From the NCBI GenBank assembly GCA_023406965.1, contig JAEXTI010000462.1, forward strand, positions 1-12,810: a DNA stretch of 12,810 nucleotides, read 5' to 3'. Both the position numbers and the translations under genes were made by a program. Every line of letters begins with the position of its first letter. Position 1 is the first letter of the stretch. The notes under the pieces were generated by a model. The model did not search any database, was not told the origin of the DNA, and saw only the letters and a list, made by a program, of their open reading frames with translations. Source of the DNA: Chloroflexota bacterium. GTDB lineage: Bacteria; Chloroflexota; Anaerolineae; Anaerolineales; Anaerolineaceae. Shown here in pieces: positions 1 to 4,578 of this stretch.

Positions 1-275
1 CCCATCTCGAACAGGGCCTGCATGCCCACGCAAATGCCCAGGAGCGGGTCACCGCGCTCGATGACTTCGCGCACGGCTGCATCCAGGCCGCGGGCGCGCA
101 GGCCGTCCATGAAGGCGGCAAAGGCCCCCACACCCGGCAGCAGCACCCGCCCCGGTTCGCTTAAATCGGCGGGGTCGGTGGTGACGCGGATGGCGTAGCC
201 CAGGTGTTCGAGGGCGTTGCGCACGGAGTGCAAGTTGCCGGTTCCGGCGTCGATGAGAATGGCGTCGTATTTCAT
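1..275 (-). CDS. hisH: Imidazole glycerol phosphate synthase glutaminase subunit HisH (partial, C-terminus off the window)
   Basis: HisH is the class I glutamine amidotransferase that hydrolyses glutamine and channels ammonia to HisF, which makes imidazole glycerol phosphate and AICAR in the cytoplasm. About 91 residues are visible, starting MKYDAILIDAGTGNLHSV. The typical motifs are GTGNLHSV (residues 11-18), LPGVGAF (46-52) and the nucleophile elbow GICVGMQ (80-86), with Cys82 as the expected catalytic cysteine. The catalytic His and Glu lie in the missing C-terminal half. The ATG at 275 is preceded by AGGAGA at a suitable distance, and it begins 14 nt after the stop of the hisC/hisB gene. 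It is therefore the fourth gene of the operon, and hisA/hisF are expected beyond the left edge. The reading frame is open to position 1, with no sign of a break. Confidence 0.95.
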   Translation of the reverse strand, partial: MKYDAILIDAGTGNLHSVRNALEHLGYAIRVTTDPADLSEPGRVLLPGVGAFAAFMDGLRARGLDAAVREVIERGDPLLGICVGMQALFEM

Positions 276-289
276 GCGAGTCTCCTGGG

Positions 290-1993
290 TTATAACGAGC
301 CTTTGCTGGACGGAATTTGCCCGGTGCGCCGCGGGTCGATGCGCGTGGCAGCCGAGAGGGCCCGGGCCAGGGCTTTGAAGAGGGCTTCCACCTGGTGGTG
401 GTCGTCGCGCCCGTACTGCACGCGGGCGTGCAGGGTGAGGCGGGCCTGCTGGGCGAAGCTCTCCAAAAAGTGGGCGAAGAGCGAGACGGGCAGTCCGCCC
501 ACAGCGGGGCCGTTCCAATCCACCTGCACCACTGTGTAGGGCCGCCCGGAGAAATCCAGCGAGACCTGGGCCAGGCTCTCGTCCATGGGGGCGTCGGCGG
601 AGGCCATGCGTACCAACCCGGCTTTATCACCCAGCGCCTGGGCAAAGGCAGCGCCCAGGGTCAGACCCACATCTTCGACGGTGTGGTGCGGGTCGATGTG
701 CAGGTCACCCCGGGCGGTCACGTTCAGGTCAAACAGACCATGCACCGCGATTTGGGCCAGCATGTGATCGAGGAAGCCGATGCCGGTGTCGACGGCGTGC
801 TTGCCGGTCCCGTCGAGGTTGAGGTTGACGTTGATGCTGGTTTCGGCGGTGGCGCGGGAGACCTGGGCACGGCGGGCAGCCGGGGCGGGGGCCGGTCGCG
901 GCTCGCCCTTCAACGCGGCGATGACCCCGATGGTGTCTTCGGGGCGGCCCACCGAGATGCGGATATAGTCGCGCAGCAAGGGCGTGTCGTAGTAGCGCAC
1001 CAGCACGCCTTGTGCTGCCAGGCTGTCTTTCAGCTCGCGAGCGGAGCGGTCCAGCACCCGGCAGAGGATGAAATTGGCTTGCGATGGATGGGGTTGAAGG
1101 TAGGGCACCCCGGCGAGCAGATCCAGCAGGCGCTCGCGCTCGGCGCGCAGGCGGGCTACGTTGCCCGCCAGGAAGTCGCAATCGGCCAGGGAAGCCAGGG
1201 CGGCTTCAGTGGCTGCCACGTTGACGTTGTAGGGCTGTTTGGTCTTCCACAGGACGGGCATCAGCCAGGCCGGGAACGCGCCGTAGCCCACGCGCAGCCC
1301 GGCCAGACCGGCCCACTTGCTGAACGTGCGCAAGACGACCAGGTTCTCGCGCCGGGGCACCTGGGTGATGCGGCTGAGAGCTTCGCCGAGCTTGCCGCCC
1401 GCCGCAGTGAACTCGATATAGGCTTCGTCGATGACCAGCAAGGCGGGCAGAGCGAGCAGCGTCTCGATCTCTTCGGCGGTTGCCACGCGGCCGTCGGGGT
1501 TGTTGGGCGAGGTGACGAAAATGACCTTGGGCTTGCGCTCGGCCACGGCGGCCTGAATGGCAGGCAGGTCTAGCGAGAAATCGTCACGGCGCGGGACTTC
1601 AATCACCTGCCCGGCGTTGAGGCGCGTGTCGAAGGGGTACATGCCGAAGGTGGGCGGCAGGTTGAGAACGCAGTCGCCCGGCTCGAGCAGCACGCGCAGG
1701 AGCAGGTCGATGAGTTCATCCGCGCCCGCGCCTGGCATGAGAAACTCGGCGGGCACGCCCGTGAAACGCGCCAGGGCCTCGCGCAGCGAGCGGTTTTCGG
1801 GGTCGGGGTAGATGTGCGGCCATTGCAGCTCGGCCAGGGCCTTGCGGGCGCGCGGCGAGGGGCCGTAGGGGTTCTCGTTGGCATCCAGCTTGATGATCTG
1901 CTCGGCTGGAATGCCCAGGCGGGCCGAAAGCACCTCGAAAGGCTCGATGGGCGTGTAGGGCGGAAAATCGTCAAAACGGGGCGCGGTTTTCAT
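290..1993 (-). CDS. hisCB: Fused histidinol-phosphate aminotransferase / imidazoleglycerol-phosphate dehydratase (HisC-HisB)
   Basis: This single 567-residue frame joins two histidine enzymes. Residues 1 to about 362 are HisC, a PLP-dependent fold-type I aminotransferase converting imidazole-acetol phosphate to histidinol phosphate. It shows [12 protein letters not shown] (36-47), SPNNPDG (162-168), DEAY (189-192), the PLP lysine in TFSKWAG (Lys226), and RISVGRPED near 345-353. A short Pro/Ala-rich linker (about 363-374) leads into HisB (about 375-567), the Mn-dependent dehydratase that makes imidazole-acetol phosphate. HisB shows TGIGFLDHM (403-411), HHTVED (436-441), PMDESL (469-474), SGRPY (482-486), [12 protein letters not shown] (530-541) and a PSSKG ending. 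The product of the HisB half is the substrate of the HisC half, so the fusion joins consecutive steps. The start overlaps the hisD stop as ATGA, which supports this ATG and implies translational coupling. Both halves keep the expected catalytic residues, so both are probably active. HisC-HisB fusions are uncommon; the better known HisB fusion in enterobacteria is to a histidinol phosphatase. Confidence 0.95.
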
Positions 1994-3312
1994 AGGCGCA
2001 CCCGCGCGGAGTTGGCATGCGCGTCGAGGCCTTCCAGCATGGCGATTTCGGCGGCGGCGGGGGCAATGGTTTGCGCCGTGGCCGGGTCCAGCGAGACCAG
2101 GCTGACCACGTGGATGAAGTCGAGGACGTTGAGCGGGGAGGCAAAACGGGCCGTGCCGCCAGTAGGCATGACGTGGCTGGGTCCGGCAACGTAATCGCCG
2201 AGGACTTCAAAGCTGTGCTCGCCGACGAAGACGCCGCCCGCGCAGGTGACCCGCTCGGCCAGGCGGAAGGGCTCGCGGGTGGCCACGCAGAGGTGCTCGG
2301 GAGCGTAGGCGTTGGCCAGGTCGAGGGCTTCATCCAGGTCGCGGGTGAGCACCGCGCCGCTGCGCTCGTTGAGCGCCGAGGTGATCATCTCCTTGCGCGA
2401 GCGTTGGGCGAACTGACGCGTCACTTCGGCCTGCACAGCCTGGATCATGGCCTGGGAGGGGCACAGCAGGATGGCGGAAGCCAGCAGATCATGCTCGGCC
2501 TGGGCCAGCAAGTCGGCGGCCACCCACTCGGGGTTGGCGGTCTCGTCGGCAATGACCATCGTTTCGGTCGGCCCGGCCAGCCCGTCGATGCCCACCACGC
2601 CGTAGACCTGCTTCTTGGCCAGGGTGACGAACAGGTTGCCGGGGCCAAAAATCTTGTCTACCGCCTTCACCGATTGGGTGCCGTAGGCCAGCGCGCCGAT
2701 GGCCTGCGCCCCGCCCATGGTGTAGACTTCTTCGATGCCCAACAAGGCCGCCACCGCCAGAATGCTGGGGGCGATGCGCCCCAGGCCGCGCTGCGGCGGG
2801 GCGGCGATGGCGATTTCTTTCACCCCGGCGGCCTGGGCCGGGCAGACGGACATCAACACAGAGGAGGGTAGCGGCGCCGTCCCGGCGGGGACGTACAGCC
2901 CGATGCGGCGAATGGGGCGGATGTACTGGCCCAGTGTGCCGCCCAGGGATTGGGTCATCCAGGACGTGACGGGTTGGGCCTGGTGGAAGCGCAGCACGCG
3001 CTCGGCAGCCAGTTCAAAGGCTTTGCGCTGGGCCGAGGGCAGCCCGTCGAGAGCGGCGTGCAACTCTTCGGGCGGTACGCGCAAGGAGTCGGGCGCGGCG
3101 CCATCCAGTTTGACGGTCCACTCGCGCAGGGCGGCGTCACCATCGCGGCGCACATCGGCCAAAATGCGCTCAACCGCCTGGTAGGGGCTGAGCGGCTCGC
3201 CGAACAGCGATGCGATGCGCTGGAGGACGGCGGGTGGGACAGTTTGATCATCGAGAGAGATTCGTTTGAGGATGGTTCTTTGTGCTTCGGGGACGGAATA
3301 TTGTTTGAGCAT
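1990..3312 (-). CDS. hisD: Histidinol dehydrogenase HisD
   Basis: HisD catalyses the last two steps of histidine synthesis, the NAD-dependent four-electron oxidation of L-histidinol to L-histidine, and is a Zn enzyme. The start at 3312 gives 440 residues, the usual family length, and is preceded by AAAGGA 8 nt upstream. The frame is open back to 3438, but that extension lies inside hisG, lacks HisD similarity and would add 42 atypical residues. Visible motifs are [17 protein letters not shown] (138-154), KIFGPGN (220-226), [10 protein letters not shown] (241-250), QAEHD with Zn ligands Gln271 and His274, YAPEH with catalytic Glu339/His340, [19 protein letters not shown] with Zn ligand Asp373, and EGLDAH with Zn ligand His432. 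All catalytic and metal positions known for the E. coli enzyme appear present. It starts 25 nt after hisG and overlaps the next gene by 4 nt. Confidence 0.97.
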
Positions 3313-3337
3313 GGGGATTTTCCTTTGGGAGCAAGCG

Positions 3338-4348
3338 TTATTCGGCCAGTCCTTTAAGCATGGCGGCGTAACGCGGGGGTTCTTCTTCAAAAATATAACT
3401 GACGGGCACCACCACCACGCCGCTGCCGCCAATTTCACGCAGTTCGGTGATGGCCTGGAAGAGCTGGCTGCGGCGCACGATGATGTTCACAGCGTACCAG
3501 TTGGGGTCCAAGTCGCGGGTGACCACGCGCGAGACGGTGGGGCCTTGCAGGCCGCCGATGGTGGGCTGGGCGAATAGTAGCTCTGCAATGGCTTCGGGCG
3601 ACGACCCGCGCATGTTGGCGAAGATGTGCAGGCTGTCTTCGGCACGTAGGTGAGCTTCAAAGTACTCTAACAGGGTGCGGGCCATTTGCAGCGAACCGGG
3701 CTTGTTCTTGAGCGACTGCTTGTTGGCGATGAGCGCGGCCTGGGATGCCTGGATCAGCCCGTCGGTCAGGGGTTTGAGGCGGTTGTCGCGCAGGGTCTGG
3801 CCGGAGGAAACCAGATCAGAGATCATGTCGGCATAGCCGATGGAAGGAGCGGTTTCGAGGGTGCCTTCGGCATAGATGAGCGTGGATTGAATGCCAAATT
3901 TTGAGAGGAAAGCTTCGGTCAGGTTGGGATATTTAGTGGCCACGCGCAGGGGACGCCCCAGAGTGGCGGCGAAGGCAGCCAGCCCAGGCACATCGTTGAT
4001 CTCGGCCCAGTTTTCGGGTACCGCCAGGCGCAGCGAGCAAGCGCCGAAGCCCAGATCGTCGTGCAGGATGAGCAGATGGCCGTTTTCACCTTTGCGCTCT
4101 TCGATCACGTCAATGCCGGTGATGCCGAAATCAACGCTGCCGTCGCGGACGCTGACCACAATGTCGGCGGGACGCTGGAACAGCACCGTGAGGCCGGGCA
4201 GGACGGGGATGGTGGCTTCGTACTGGCGCGGGTTGGGCTTATAGATCTTCAGCCCGGCTTCGGCCAGGAAGTCCAGGCAGTCTTCGGCCAGGCGGCCTTT
4301 GGACGGCAAAGAAAGTCGGATAGGGGTAGGTTCGATGGATTGGGTCAT
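3338..4348 (-). CDS. hisG: ATP phosphoribosyltransferase HisG, long form
   Basis: HisG condenses ATP and PRPP to phosphoribosyl-ATP, the committed and feedback-regulated step of histidine synthesis. The 336-residue length, with a C-terminal region after about residue 245, fits the long (HisG_L) form carrying its own ACT-like regulatory domain, so no separate HisZ should be needed. Motifs are LSLPSKGRL (12-20), FQRPADIVVSVRDGSVDFGI (58-76, periplasmic-binding-like fold), the PRPP loop EGTLETAP (161-168), GYADMISDLVSSGQT (171-185), and in the regulatory domain QGPTVSRVV (268-276) and NIIVRR (288-293). The ATG at 4348 is preceded by AGGAGA (4353-4358). This is the first structural gene of the operon. 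It lies directly downstream of a terminator-like hairpin and a His-rich leader peptide, so its transcription is probably controlled by attenuation as well as by histidine inhibition of the enzyme. Confidence 0.97.
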   Translation of the reverse strand: MTQSIEPTPIRLSLPSKGRLAEDCLDFLAEAGLKIYKPNPRQYEATIPVLPGLTVLFQRPADIVVSVRDGSVDFGITGIDVIEERKGENGHLLILHDDLGFGACSLRLAVPENWAEINDVPGLAAFAATLGRPLRVATKYPNLTEAFLSKFGIQSTLIYAEGTLETAPSIGYADMISDLVSSGQTLRDNRLKPLTDGLIQASQAALIANKQSLKNKPGSLQMARTLLEYFEAHLRAEDSLHIFANMRGSSPEAIAELLFAQPTIGGLQGPTVSRVVTRDLDPNWYAVNIIVRRSQLFQAITELREIGGSGVVVVPVSYIFEEEPPRYAAMLKGLAE

Positions 4349-4352
4349 GGGT

Positions 4353-4358
4353 TCTCCT
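4353..4358 (-). promoter_or_regulatory. hisG ribosome binding site
   Basis: AGGAGA on the minus strand lies 4 nt before the hisG ATG and about 4 nt after the T-rich tract of the attenuator. The upstream hairpin therefore controls readthrough into the gene and leaves the ribosome binding site itself free. Confidence 0.75.
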
Positions 4359-4362
4359 GGGT

Positions 4363-4392
4363 AAAAGAAAAGCCCCCGGTGTCCGGGGGCTT
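4363..4392 (-). terminator. his attenuator: intrinsic terminator hairpin before hisG
   Basis: On the minus strand AAGCCCCCGG (4392-4383) and CCGGGGGCTT (4379-4370) form a perfect 10-bp stem with a 3-nt loop (ACA). The strand continues with T residues interrupted by one C (to 4363). This is a standard Rho-independent terminator. It lies between the leader peptide and hisG, with no full-length gene upstream on this strand, so it should end transcription of the leader RNA rather than of a preceding gene. This is the 3:4 hairpin of the attenuator. Confidence 0.9.
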
Positions 4393-4453
4393 GTTTGGTG
4401 TCAAGGCATACGCAAACGCAACCGACCTCCGGTCAGGCTGGGGGGAGGTGGGT
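4383..4453 (-). promoter_or_regulatory. Mutually exclusive leader RNA pairings (segments 1, 2 and 3 of the his attenuator)
   Basis: Segment 1, ACCCACCTCC (4453-4444), overlaps the leader codons just after the three consecutive His codons. It can pair with segment 2, GGAGGTCGGT (4430-4421), forming 9 bp with one C-C mismatch. Segment 2 begins directly after the leader stop codon. Its stretch CCGGAGGT (4432-4425) can instead pair with GCCCCCGG (4390-4383), which is the 5' arm of the terminator, with one A-C mismatch and one U-G wobble. An inner GTTTG (4417-4413) / CAAAC (4397-4393) helix could extend this antiterminator. A ribosome stalled at the His codons would block segment 1 and favour 2:3, giving readthrough. 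A ribosome reaching the stop codon would cover segment 2 and favour the terminator. Pairings were found by eye; no folding energies were calculated. Confidence 0.75.
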
Positions 4454-4486
4454 ATGATGATGAATTCGGGAGATGTTGCGTTTCAT
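4433..4486 (-). CDS. hisL: Histidine operon leader peptide, 17 residues
   Basis: The minus strand encodes MKRNISRIHHHTHLPPA followed by TGA. Four of five consecutive codons (residues 9-13) are His (CAT CAT CAT ACC CAC), the classic sensor of charged tRNA-His in ribosome-mediated attenuation. The ORF lies between a strong promoter and the terminator hairpin before hisG, and its stop codon directly abuts the RNA segment able to switch pairing partners. The peptide itself probably has no function beyond translation. There is no Shine-Dalgarno sequence, and the ATG lies only about 8 nt after the -10 box, so translation may start on a leaderless mRNA. It is not a homologue by sequence of the E. 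coli his leader; the call rests on codon content and position. Confidence 0.88.
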   Translation of the reverse strand: MKRNISRIHHHTHLPPA

Positions 4487-4494
4487 TGGGGGTG

Positions 4495-4523
4495 TTTATA
4501 TCAGAGGGATGAGGATTTGTCAA
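4495..4523 (-). promoter_or_regulatory. his operon promoter
   Basis: On the minus strand TTGACA (4523-4518) is separated by exactly 17 nt from TATAAA (4500-4495), an almost perfect housekeeping sigma-factor promoter. The expected start of transcription falls around 4489-4486; the first purines there are the A at 4487 and the A of the leader ATG at 4486. The promoter thus points straight into the His-rich leader peptide and the attenuator. Confidence 0.85.
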
Positions 4524-4532
4524 TGGAATGCC

Positions 4533-4578
4533 GCATGACCGGAGGGGCAATTCATGAATTACCCCTCCGGTTGCATGC
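4533..4578. repeat. Long imperfect palindrome in the divergent intergenic region
   Basis: CCGGAGGGG (4539-4547) and CCCCTCCGG (4562-4570) are perfect 9-bp arms. Inside them AATTC (4549-4553) and GAATT (4556-4560) also pair, with a single C/A mismatch between the helices and a 2-nt centre. Outside, A4538 pairs with T4571, and GCATG (4533-4537) can pair with CATGC (4574-4578) across a 2-nt bulge. There is no T-tract on either side and no convergent transcripts, so it is not an ordinary terminator. It lies about 10 bp upstream of the his -35 box and about 90 bp upstream of the rightward -10 box, a good position for an operator, though the ligand is unknown. Confidence 0.75.

Follow-up and report, generated by a model that had tools for sequence, protein, structure and literature searches.

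The his operon in the analysed stretch of DNA (12,810 nucleotides from an Anaerolineaceae member of the Chloroflexota, referred to here as the window) is very likely controlled by a ribosome-mediated transcription attenuator whose leader peptide is probably leaderless. An earlier note on this DNA had proposed ribosome-mediated attenuation, and this reading is supported by conserved His runs, terminators and co-varying antiterminators in relatives as well as by a modelled ribosome-position profile; the probably leaderless start of the leader, hisL, is an addition to that note. The strongest evidence is the conservation in relatives: because the antiterminator of the window itself is weak, it is, at the level of sequence comparison, the family rather than the window that carries the proof.

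The promoter, leader, switch and his genes of the window all lie on the minus strand. A -35 box TTGACA (4518..4523) and a -10 box TATAAA (4495..4500), identified by sequence and promoter score, are separated by a 17-nt spacer, the -10 box ending 8 nt before the leader ATG, and from its position transcription would be expected to start at about 4488-4486. The automated promoter scan required a T at the last -10 position and therefore did not pick up this promoter. The leader ORF hisL (4433..4486, stop codon at 4435-4433), again identified by sequence and promoter score, comprises 17 codons for the putative peptide MKRNISRIHHHTHLPPA and a stop (ATG AAA CGC AAC ATC TCC CGA ATT CAT CAT CAT ACC CAC CTC CCC CCA GCC TGA). 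Its control codons CAT CAT CAT ACC CAC (HHHTH) occupy 4448..4462, and the pattern CATCATCATNNNCAY occurs a single time in the window versus 0.01 expected from shuffling. Between this leader and hisG lies an intrinsic terminator (4363..4392) consisting of AAGCCCCCGG, the 3-nt loop ACA, CCGGGGGCTT and the T-rich tract TTCTTTT, with a stem of 10 bp. Both the 17-residue HHHTH leader and the terminator hairpin with its T-rich tract had been described in the earlier note and are indeed present.

Downstream follow AGGAG (4354..4358), the likely Shine-Dalgarno site of hisG, and hisG itself (3338..4348), which encodes an ATP phosphoribosyltransferase of 336 aa (TIGR00070, 171.5 bits, and TIGR03455, 59.7 bits, both above cut-off). 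The longest ORF for hisD (1990..3438; TIGR00069, 498 bits) probably has its true start near 3312. It is followed by a hisC-hisB fusion of 567 aa (290..1993), in which TIGR01141 matches residues 29-362 and NF002116 (HisB) residues 373-567, and by the start of hisH (3..518), which is cut by the window end and gives a partial, below-cut-off match to TIGR01855 (77.7 bits) from about residue 87 of the ORF. Both hisC and hisB domains are present in 110 of the best 120 proteins listed, the window included. Ahead of the his promoter, 4538-4571 form the near-perfect palindrome ACCGGAGGGGCAATTCATGAATTACCCCTCCGGT of 34 bp; in the relative L001 a palindrome with other flanks has the core GGCAATTCATGAATTGCC, which is absent from all others of the 315 loci.

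Downstream of the leader lies the switch segment TGACCGGAGGTCGGTTGCGTTTGCGTA (4409..4435), for which the earlier note had claimed two alternative partners. Pairing with the leader holds in the window itself: segment 2, CGGAGGTCGGTTGCGTTTGCGTA (4409..4431), can pair with segment 1, the start codon and first codons of hisL (4469..4486), at -21.0 kcal/mol and a z-score of -3.5. The second partner is the terminator 5' arm AAGCCCCCGG (4383..4392), which would form the 3' strand of an antiterminator with TGACCGGAGGTCGG (4422..4435) as its 5' strand. This pairing is evident in the family but weak in the window (z -0.7, with 21 of 100 shuffles equally good). The leader was also folded in free and constrained states, as the earlier note had suggested. 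The 139-nt leader reaches -41.6 kcal/mol (z -2.48, 4 of 200 shuffles equally good); however, the antiterminator is the minimum-energy fold in none of the four modelled window states, and the terminator is retained in all four full-length folds, which counts against attenuation. The same is true of the observation that segments 1 and 2 remain paired in the model when the ribosome mask is placed at the last His codon. The modelled antiterminator probability in the window is 0.00 for the free RNA, 0.22 with a ribosome stalled at His and 0.00 with a ribosome at the stop codon; in L001, the nearest relative of the window, it is 0.57 when stalled.

The HisG protein of the window shares 79% identity with its Anaerolinea thermolimosa counterpart and up to 98% with other proteins, and a quick HisG tree joins the window to L001 (an Anaerolineaceae MAG, 96%) and then to Anaerolinea, placing the source in the Anaerolineae, as the earlier note had guessed. 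At the DNA level, a good alignment between the window and L001 begins near the -35 box and extends through the hisG start; further upstream the alignment is poor. No HisG relatives were found in viral contigs. The comparison of upstream regions, which the earlier note had also recommended, was made with the best 80 of the 177 hisG loci found, in named genome contigs, the criterion being three or more His within 8 codons of an upstream ORF. Such a His-run leader stands ahead of hisG at 75 of these 80 loci. No leader was called in L036 and L069, where the contig is cut, in L011, where an unrelated coding sequence lies upstream (perhaps a chimeric contig), in L055, where the leader is degenerate and promoter and terminator are present, and in L077, where a His-run leader is seen by eye, displaced upstream by an inserted gene. 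This short gene of L077, between attenuator and hisG, possibly encodes a four-helix-bundle / 23S intervening-sequence protein.

In 74 of 76 cases (window included), 7-10 nt separate the end of the -10 box from the first codon of the leader, and for this reason hisL is probably leaderless, its RNA starting at or near the AUG with little room for a Shine-Dalgarno site. A promoter score of at least 11 was obtained for 71 of 76 leader starts and for 3 of 2665 other ATGs at the same loci, a contrast that is flattered since the leader starts were picked partly by promoter score. Free of this circularity is the residue-blind choice of the best promoter-adjacent short ORF, which exists at 70 of the 80 loci and contains a His run in all 70. 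Among the 75 leaders analysed, 14 have 18 residues or fewer and 61 are longer; in 52 of the longer ones the stop codon lies at or beyond the 3' end of the switch segment, and in 38 it lies 10-31 nt past it. The earlier note had stated that the leader stop codon directly touches the switch segment, as the model requires. The overlap is real in the window, but such contact is no requirement in view of these longer leaders.

The intrinsic terminator upstream of hisG was detected by code in 75 of 76 leaders; the one missed, L005, was entered by hand for the covariation analysis. In the family its 5' arm is often CCCCCGGTC, which is able to pair with a GACCGGnGG-like segment, yielding an antiterminator that excludes the terminator by using its 5' arm. 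This pairing has a median z of -3.07 (below -2 in 61 of 75), and the antiterminator segment begins 7-21 nt past the His run in 75/75 leaders. The pair types vary together and include GACCGG/CCGGTC, GGTCGG/CCGACC, GATTCGG/CCGAATC and GACTGG/CCAGTC. With rows as set by code, 409 of 450 core pairs are formed, the maximum in 5000 permutations being 379, and with 9 hand-set rows 436 of 456, the permutations giving 401.6 +/- 2.9 and at most 414; kinship is ignored in both comparisons. Hand-set antiterminator anchors were used for L009, L010, L024, L029, L061, L074 and L080 as well as L073, which enter the covariation analysis and the three-state model in this form and are absent from the codon-by-codon profile. 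The HisG tree requires a minimum of 11 pair-state changes at each of the positions +3 and +4, a count that is not restricted to compensated double changes. The first codons of the leader also pair around the antiterminator strand and downstream of it, at a median z of -1.91; that this segment 1:2 pairing has a z below -2 in only 35 of 75 leaders counts against the attenuation reading.

The influence of the ribosome position was modelled with a 31-nt ribosome mask on RNA made as far as the terminator loop. Over 75 leaders, the mean antiterminator probability is 0.57 for free RNA, 0.91 with the ribosome stalled at His and 0.43 with the ribosome at the stop codon, so that in the family model a stall at His frees the antiterminator and an advancing ribosome covers it. 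At the stop codon the probability is 0.00 in the 14 short leaders and averages 0.53 in the 61 long ones, where the antiterminator is not invariably lost with the ribosome in this position, which counts against the reading. A codon-by-codon A-site profile, computed for 67 of the 75 leaders, lies at 0.89-0.93 within the His run, has dropped to 0.18 by +7 and is 0.00 at +9 to +15. Two of its features count against a simple switch: the profile climbs again to 0.74 at +20 (23 leaders reaching that far), and antitermination is likewise permitted when the mask covers codons ahead of the His run (0.75-0.87, 67 leaders). The rise ahead of the run is mild and the sharp feature is the fall after it; in this profile the His run is thus placed near the last stall position that still allows antitermination. 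Free RNA already favours the antiterminator in some relatives (a probability of 0.99 in L025 and L030), so that termination without translation is not general.

Taken together, we propose that transcription begins at or a few bases from the leader AUG and that the ribosome starts on the RNA 5' end. When His-tRNA is scarce, the ribosome would stall in the HHHTH run and cover the leader coding region, segment 2 would be less held by segment 1 and would pair with the terminator 5' arm, and with the antiterminator formed RNA polymerase would continue into hisG, hisD, hisCB and hisH. When His-tRNA is plentiful, the ribosome would run on; in short leaders, including that of the window, it would stop on the switch segment and block its pairing, and in long leaders it would pass over the switch segment. 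With the switch segment blocked or passed, the terminator would form, making readthrough into hisG presumably dependent on histidine.

It is very improbable that the His-rich ORF is a product of chance and the hairpin an ordinary terminator or mRNA 5' structure without any sensing. The window-only statistics are modest (antiterminator z -0.7, fold z -2.48) and would fit such a view, but the His runs recur in 75 of 80 relatives and in 70/70 without the residue criterion, argG has Arg runs instead (45 of 46), the antiterminator pairs co-vary, and the promoter-adjacent short ORFs before eno are rarer (6 of 26) and mutually unrelated. We regard the control of hisG by a histidine T-box or another known riboswitch as extremely improbable, for although trpE of this clade has T-boxes at 5 of 8 loci tested, no Rfam family reached its gathering score in the window and the leader of about 140 nt from promoter to hisG is occupied by the leader ORF and the hairpins. 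The best match below threshold was rdlD on the plus strand (E 0.014), followed by matches to leaders for Thr, Trp, His and Phe (E 0.055-0.86); a generic leader shape is their probable cause. Among them, the His_leader family RF00514 scored 19.4 bits against a gathering score of 49 (E 0.41), so that the window is not a member at threshold. A search with the T-box model RF00230, of the kind that detects T-boxes at trpE, gave no match in the window, and a T-box was rejected as a candidate.

Unlikely, in our opinion, is also that histidine is sensed while the switch acts partly or wholly on hisG translation, Rho termination or mRNA decay. Leader ORFs in other bacteria can act in such ways, as does speF orf34 (PMC6386406), and the free leader fold of the window pairs the AGGAG region of hisG with the T tract, which might affect ribosome access. 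Nevertheless, the code detected a GC-rich hairpin with a T tract in 75 of 76 leaders, and its position ahead of hisG is the one seen in known attenuators, which argues for transcription attenuation.

To follow the spread of the his attenuator, 121 genomes were drawn from the phylum to which A. thermolimosa belongs; 93 of them had a HisG match, and 50 loci were examined. At a HisG identity of at least 58%, a His-run leader was present in 8 of 8 loci, although at least four of these genomes (G001, G024, G078, G126) were already among the 80. The leader peptide of G118 is identical to that of L009, and L086 has a poor promoter (score 8), L087 a moderate one (10.5). At identities of 50% or below, a promoter-adjacent His leader was found within about 1500 nt in none of 42 loci, a search that leaders before other his genes would escape; the His clusters seen in L123 and L127 lack a promoter. 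One of these 42, L130 (G090, HisG 35% identical), has a YNHHHHEQG leader and a terminator with a promoter-like site well upstream and may represent an independent his attenuator belonging to a different group of this phylum.

Other genes of the clade were searched for comparable leaders. The 16 trpE loci contained no convincing Trp leader, one ORF having two scattered W and a promoter score of 7; with T-boxes at five of the eight loci tested, the choice of sensor by amino acid becomes testable within one clade. No promoter-adjacent leader was found at 21 ilvB loci (branched-chain-rich ORFs without promoter occur in L152 and L156) and no Rfam match in the 11 of them searched; 17 loci of LeuA-like relatives had no conserved leader. 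At eno, short promoter-adjacent ORFs occur at 6 of 26 loci and are unrelated to each other, so that the leader seen before eno in A. thermolimosa is not conserved.

In A. thermolimosa, the pattern of a promoter-adjacent ATG is found at 19 places (with two identical copies) versus 4 for the reversed pattern. These places include hisL, a leader before argG and a leader before a LeuA/homocitrate-synthase-family gene, the latter two genes being about 2.7 kb apart. Promoter-adjacent short ORFs with terminators were also noted at L184, L190 and L177 of this genome; by eye, the genes behind them are eno, a dihydroorotase-like gene and a third without assignment.

The argG set comprised 53 loci, in one of which the anchor was not found; partial or weak loci (L217-L220, L223-L225) were left out, and one further match had no locus. 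A promoter-adjacent Arg-run leader precedes argG at 45 of 52 loci, and 45 of 46 leaders picked by promoter alone contain an Arg run; examples are RTRRPKP and LRRRVRR (argG loci including L187/L199, L203, L204, L209 and L214). No scoring leader was present in L196, L199 (RR only), L202, L205, L215, L256 and L279. A terminator follows in 45/45, and the antiterminator, with a median z of -2.28 (below -2 in 31 of 45), again varies in its pairs (GAGAAGG/CCTTCTC, GAGGTGG/CCACCTC); a segment 1:2 pairing is unsupported at argG (median z -0.66, below -2 in 9 of 45).

For the LeuA/homocitrate-synthase-family gene, 25 loci (L186, L226-L235, L286-L299) were considered, one lacking the anchor, and K-x-K-R-like promoter-adjacent leaders rich in Lys and Arg, with motifs such as EAKAKRKP and ADKRVKR, were found at 18 of 24. 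A terminator is present in all 18; the antiterminator is weak (median z -1.10, below -2 in 6 of 18), and at least 3 Lys in 8 residues occur in only 7 of 19 promoter-picked leaders. Modelled antitermination rises at or after the run in both argG and this lysine class and is about zero some 11 codons further on, the peak of the lysine class falling after the K motif. No NCBIfam model exceeds its cut-off for this gene product: the best match is a 2-isopropylmalate-synthase subfamily (505.9 bits, cut-off 517), the next LysS TIGR02146 (412.1 bits, cut-off 413.55), and a C-terminal stretch resembles LysM (51 bits, below cut-off). It appears that argG shares the hisG leader design, as does, less surely, the LeuA/homocitrate-synthase-family gene, whose assignment as a lysine class is uncertain. 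Upstream of a 39%-identical relative of this gene in Longilinea arvoryzae (L246) we observed another promoter-adjacent leader, MQQPRLFTKKEGKKCTRTLL, which contains two KK pairs and is accompanied by a terminator-like hairpin.

The his attenuator is most likely one of a small set in its clade. A tentative generalisation, which we would sooner doubt than assert, is that the Anaerolineae use one design of leaderless codon run, switch and terminator for the basic amino acids, namely His at hisG, Arg at argG and Lys, perhaps Lys plus Arg, at the LeuA/homocitrate-synthase-family gene. Because the transcript would begin with the AUG, which many his leaders also include in the segment 1:2 stem, initiation may take place mainly before this stem forms. 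The amino acid might then be read a single time per transcript, with neither the RNA-polymerase pause nor the Shine-Dalgarno loading known from the enteric attenuators.

As far as the literature searched goes, the his attenuator is most likely new for its phylum. The earlier note knew of no description in Chloroflexota, and we likewise found none of a codon-run attenuator in the open-access literature, as far as the accessible texts go, which is no proof of absence; in two papers on Chloroflexi, the "leader peptides" are those of secretion and of peptide antibiotics. Codon-run attenuation would thereby be extended to a deep-branching phylum without earlier description in the literature searched. 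The many natural variants of one switch offer a test of leaderless translation-transcription coupling, and the findings point to Arg-codon attenuators of an arginine-synthesis gene and perhaps to Lys-codon ones, neither of which was found in that literature.

With the enteric his attenuator (RF00514), the Anaerolineae system has in common that the his operon is preceded by a leader peptide with His codons, by alternative hairpins and by an intrinsic terminator; it differs in its shorter, probably leaderless leader and its own co-varying GACCGG/CCGGTC switch. Outside the Proteobacteria, the his attenuators found in Firmicutes by comparative genomics likewise have His-run leaders, a terminator and an antiterminator (PMC9413887, PMC2965389); they belong to another phylum, a leaderless start is not mentioned in the accessible parts of these reports, and the likeness is one of description. 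According to PMC2965389, only Proteobacteria and Actinobacteria had been known to possess such systems until its own Firmicutes case. Leaderless leader peptides followed by hairpins are shared with Actinobacteria, where leuL, trpL and ilvL of S. lividans are transcribed in this way; that report, in its accessible part, lists leaders for Leu, Trp, Ile, Thr, Met and Ala, without His, Arg or Lys, and concerns another phylum (PMC8079986). Comparable to the argG leaders is orf34 of Salmonella speF, a short upstream ORF in which ribosome pausing at consecutive Arg codons alters mRNA folding; as described in the accessible part of the report, it has a Shine-Dalgarno site and controls polyamine synthesis via Rho, RNase G and ribosome-site access (PMC6386406). 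Unlike speF orf34, the argG leaders stand ahead of an intrinsic terminator and of a gene for arginine synthesis.
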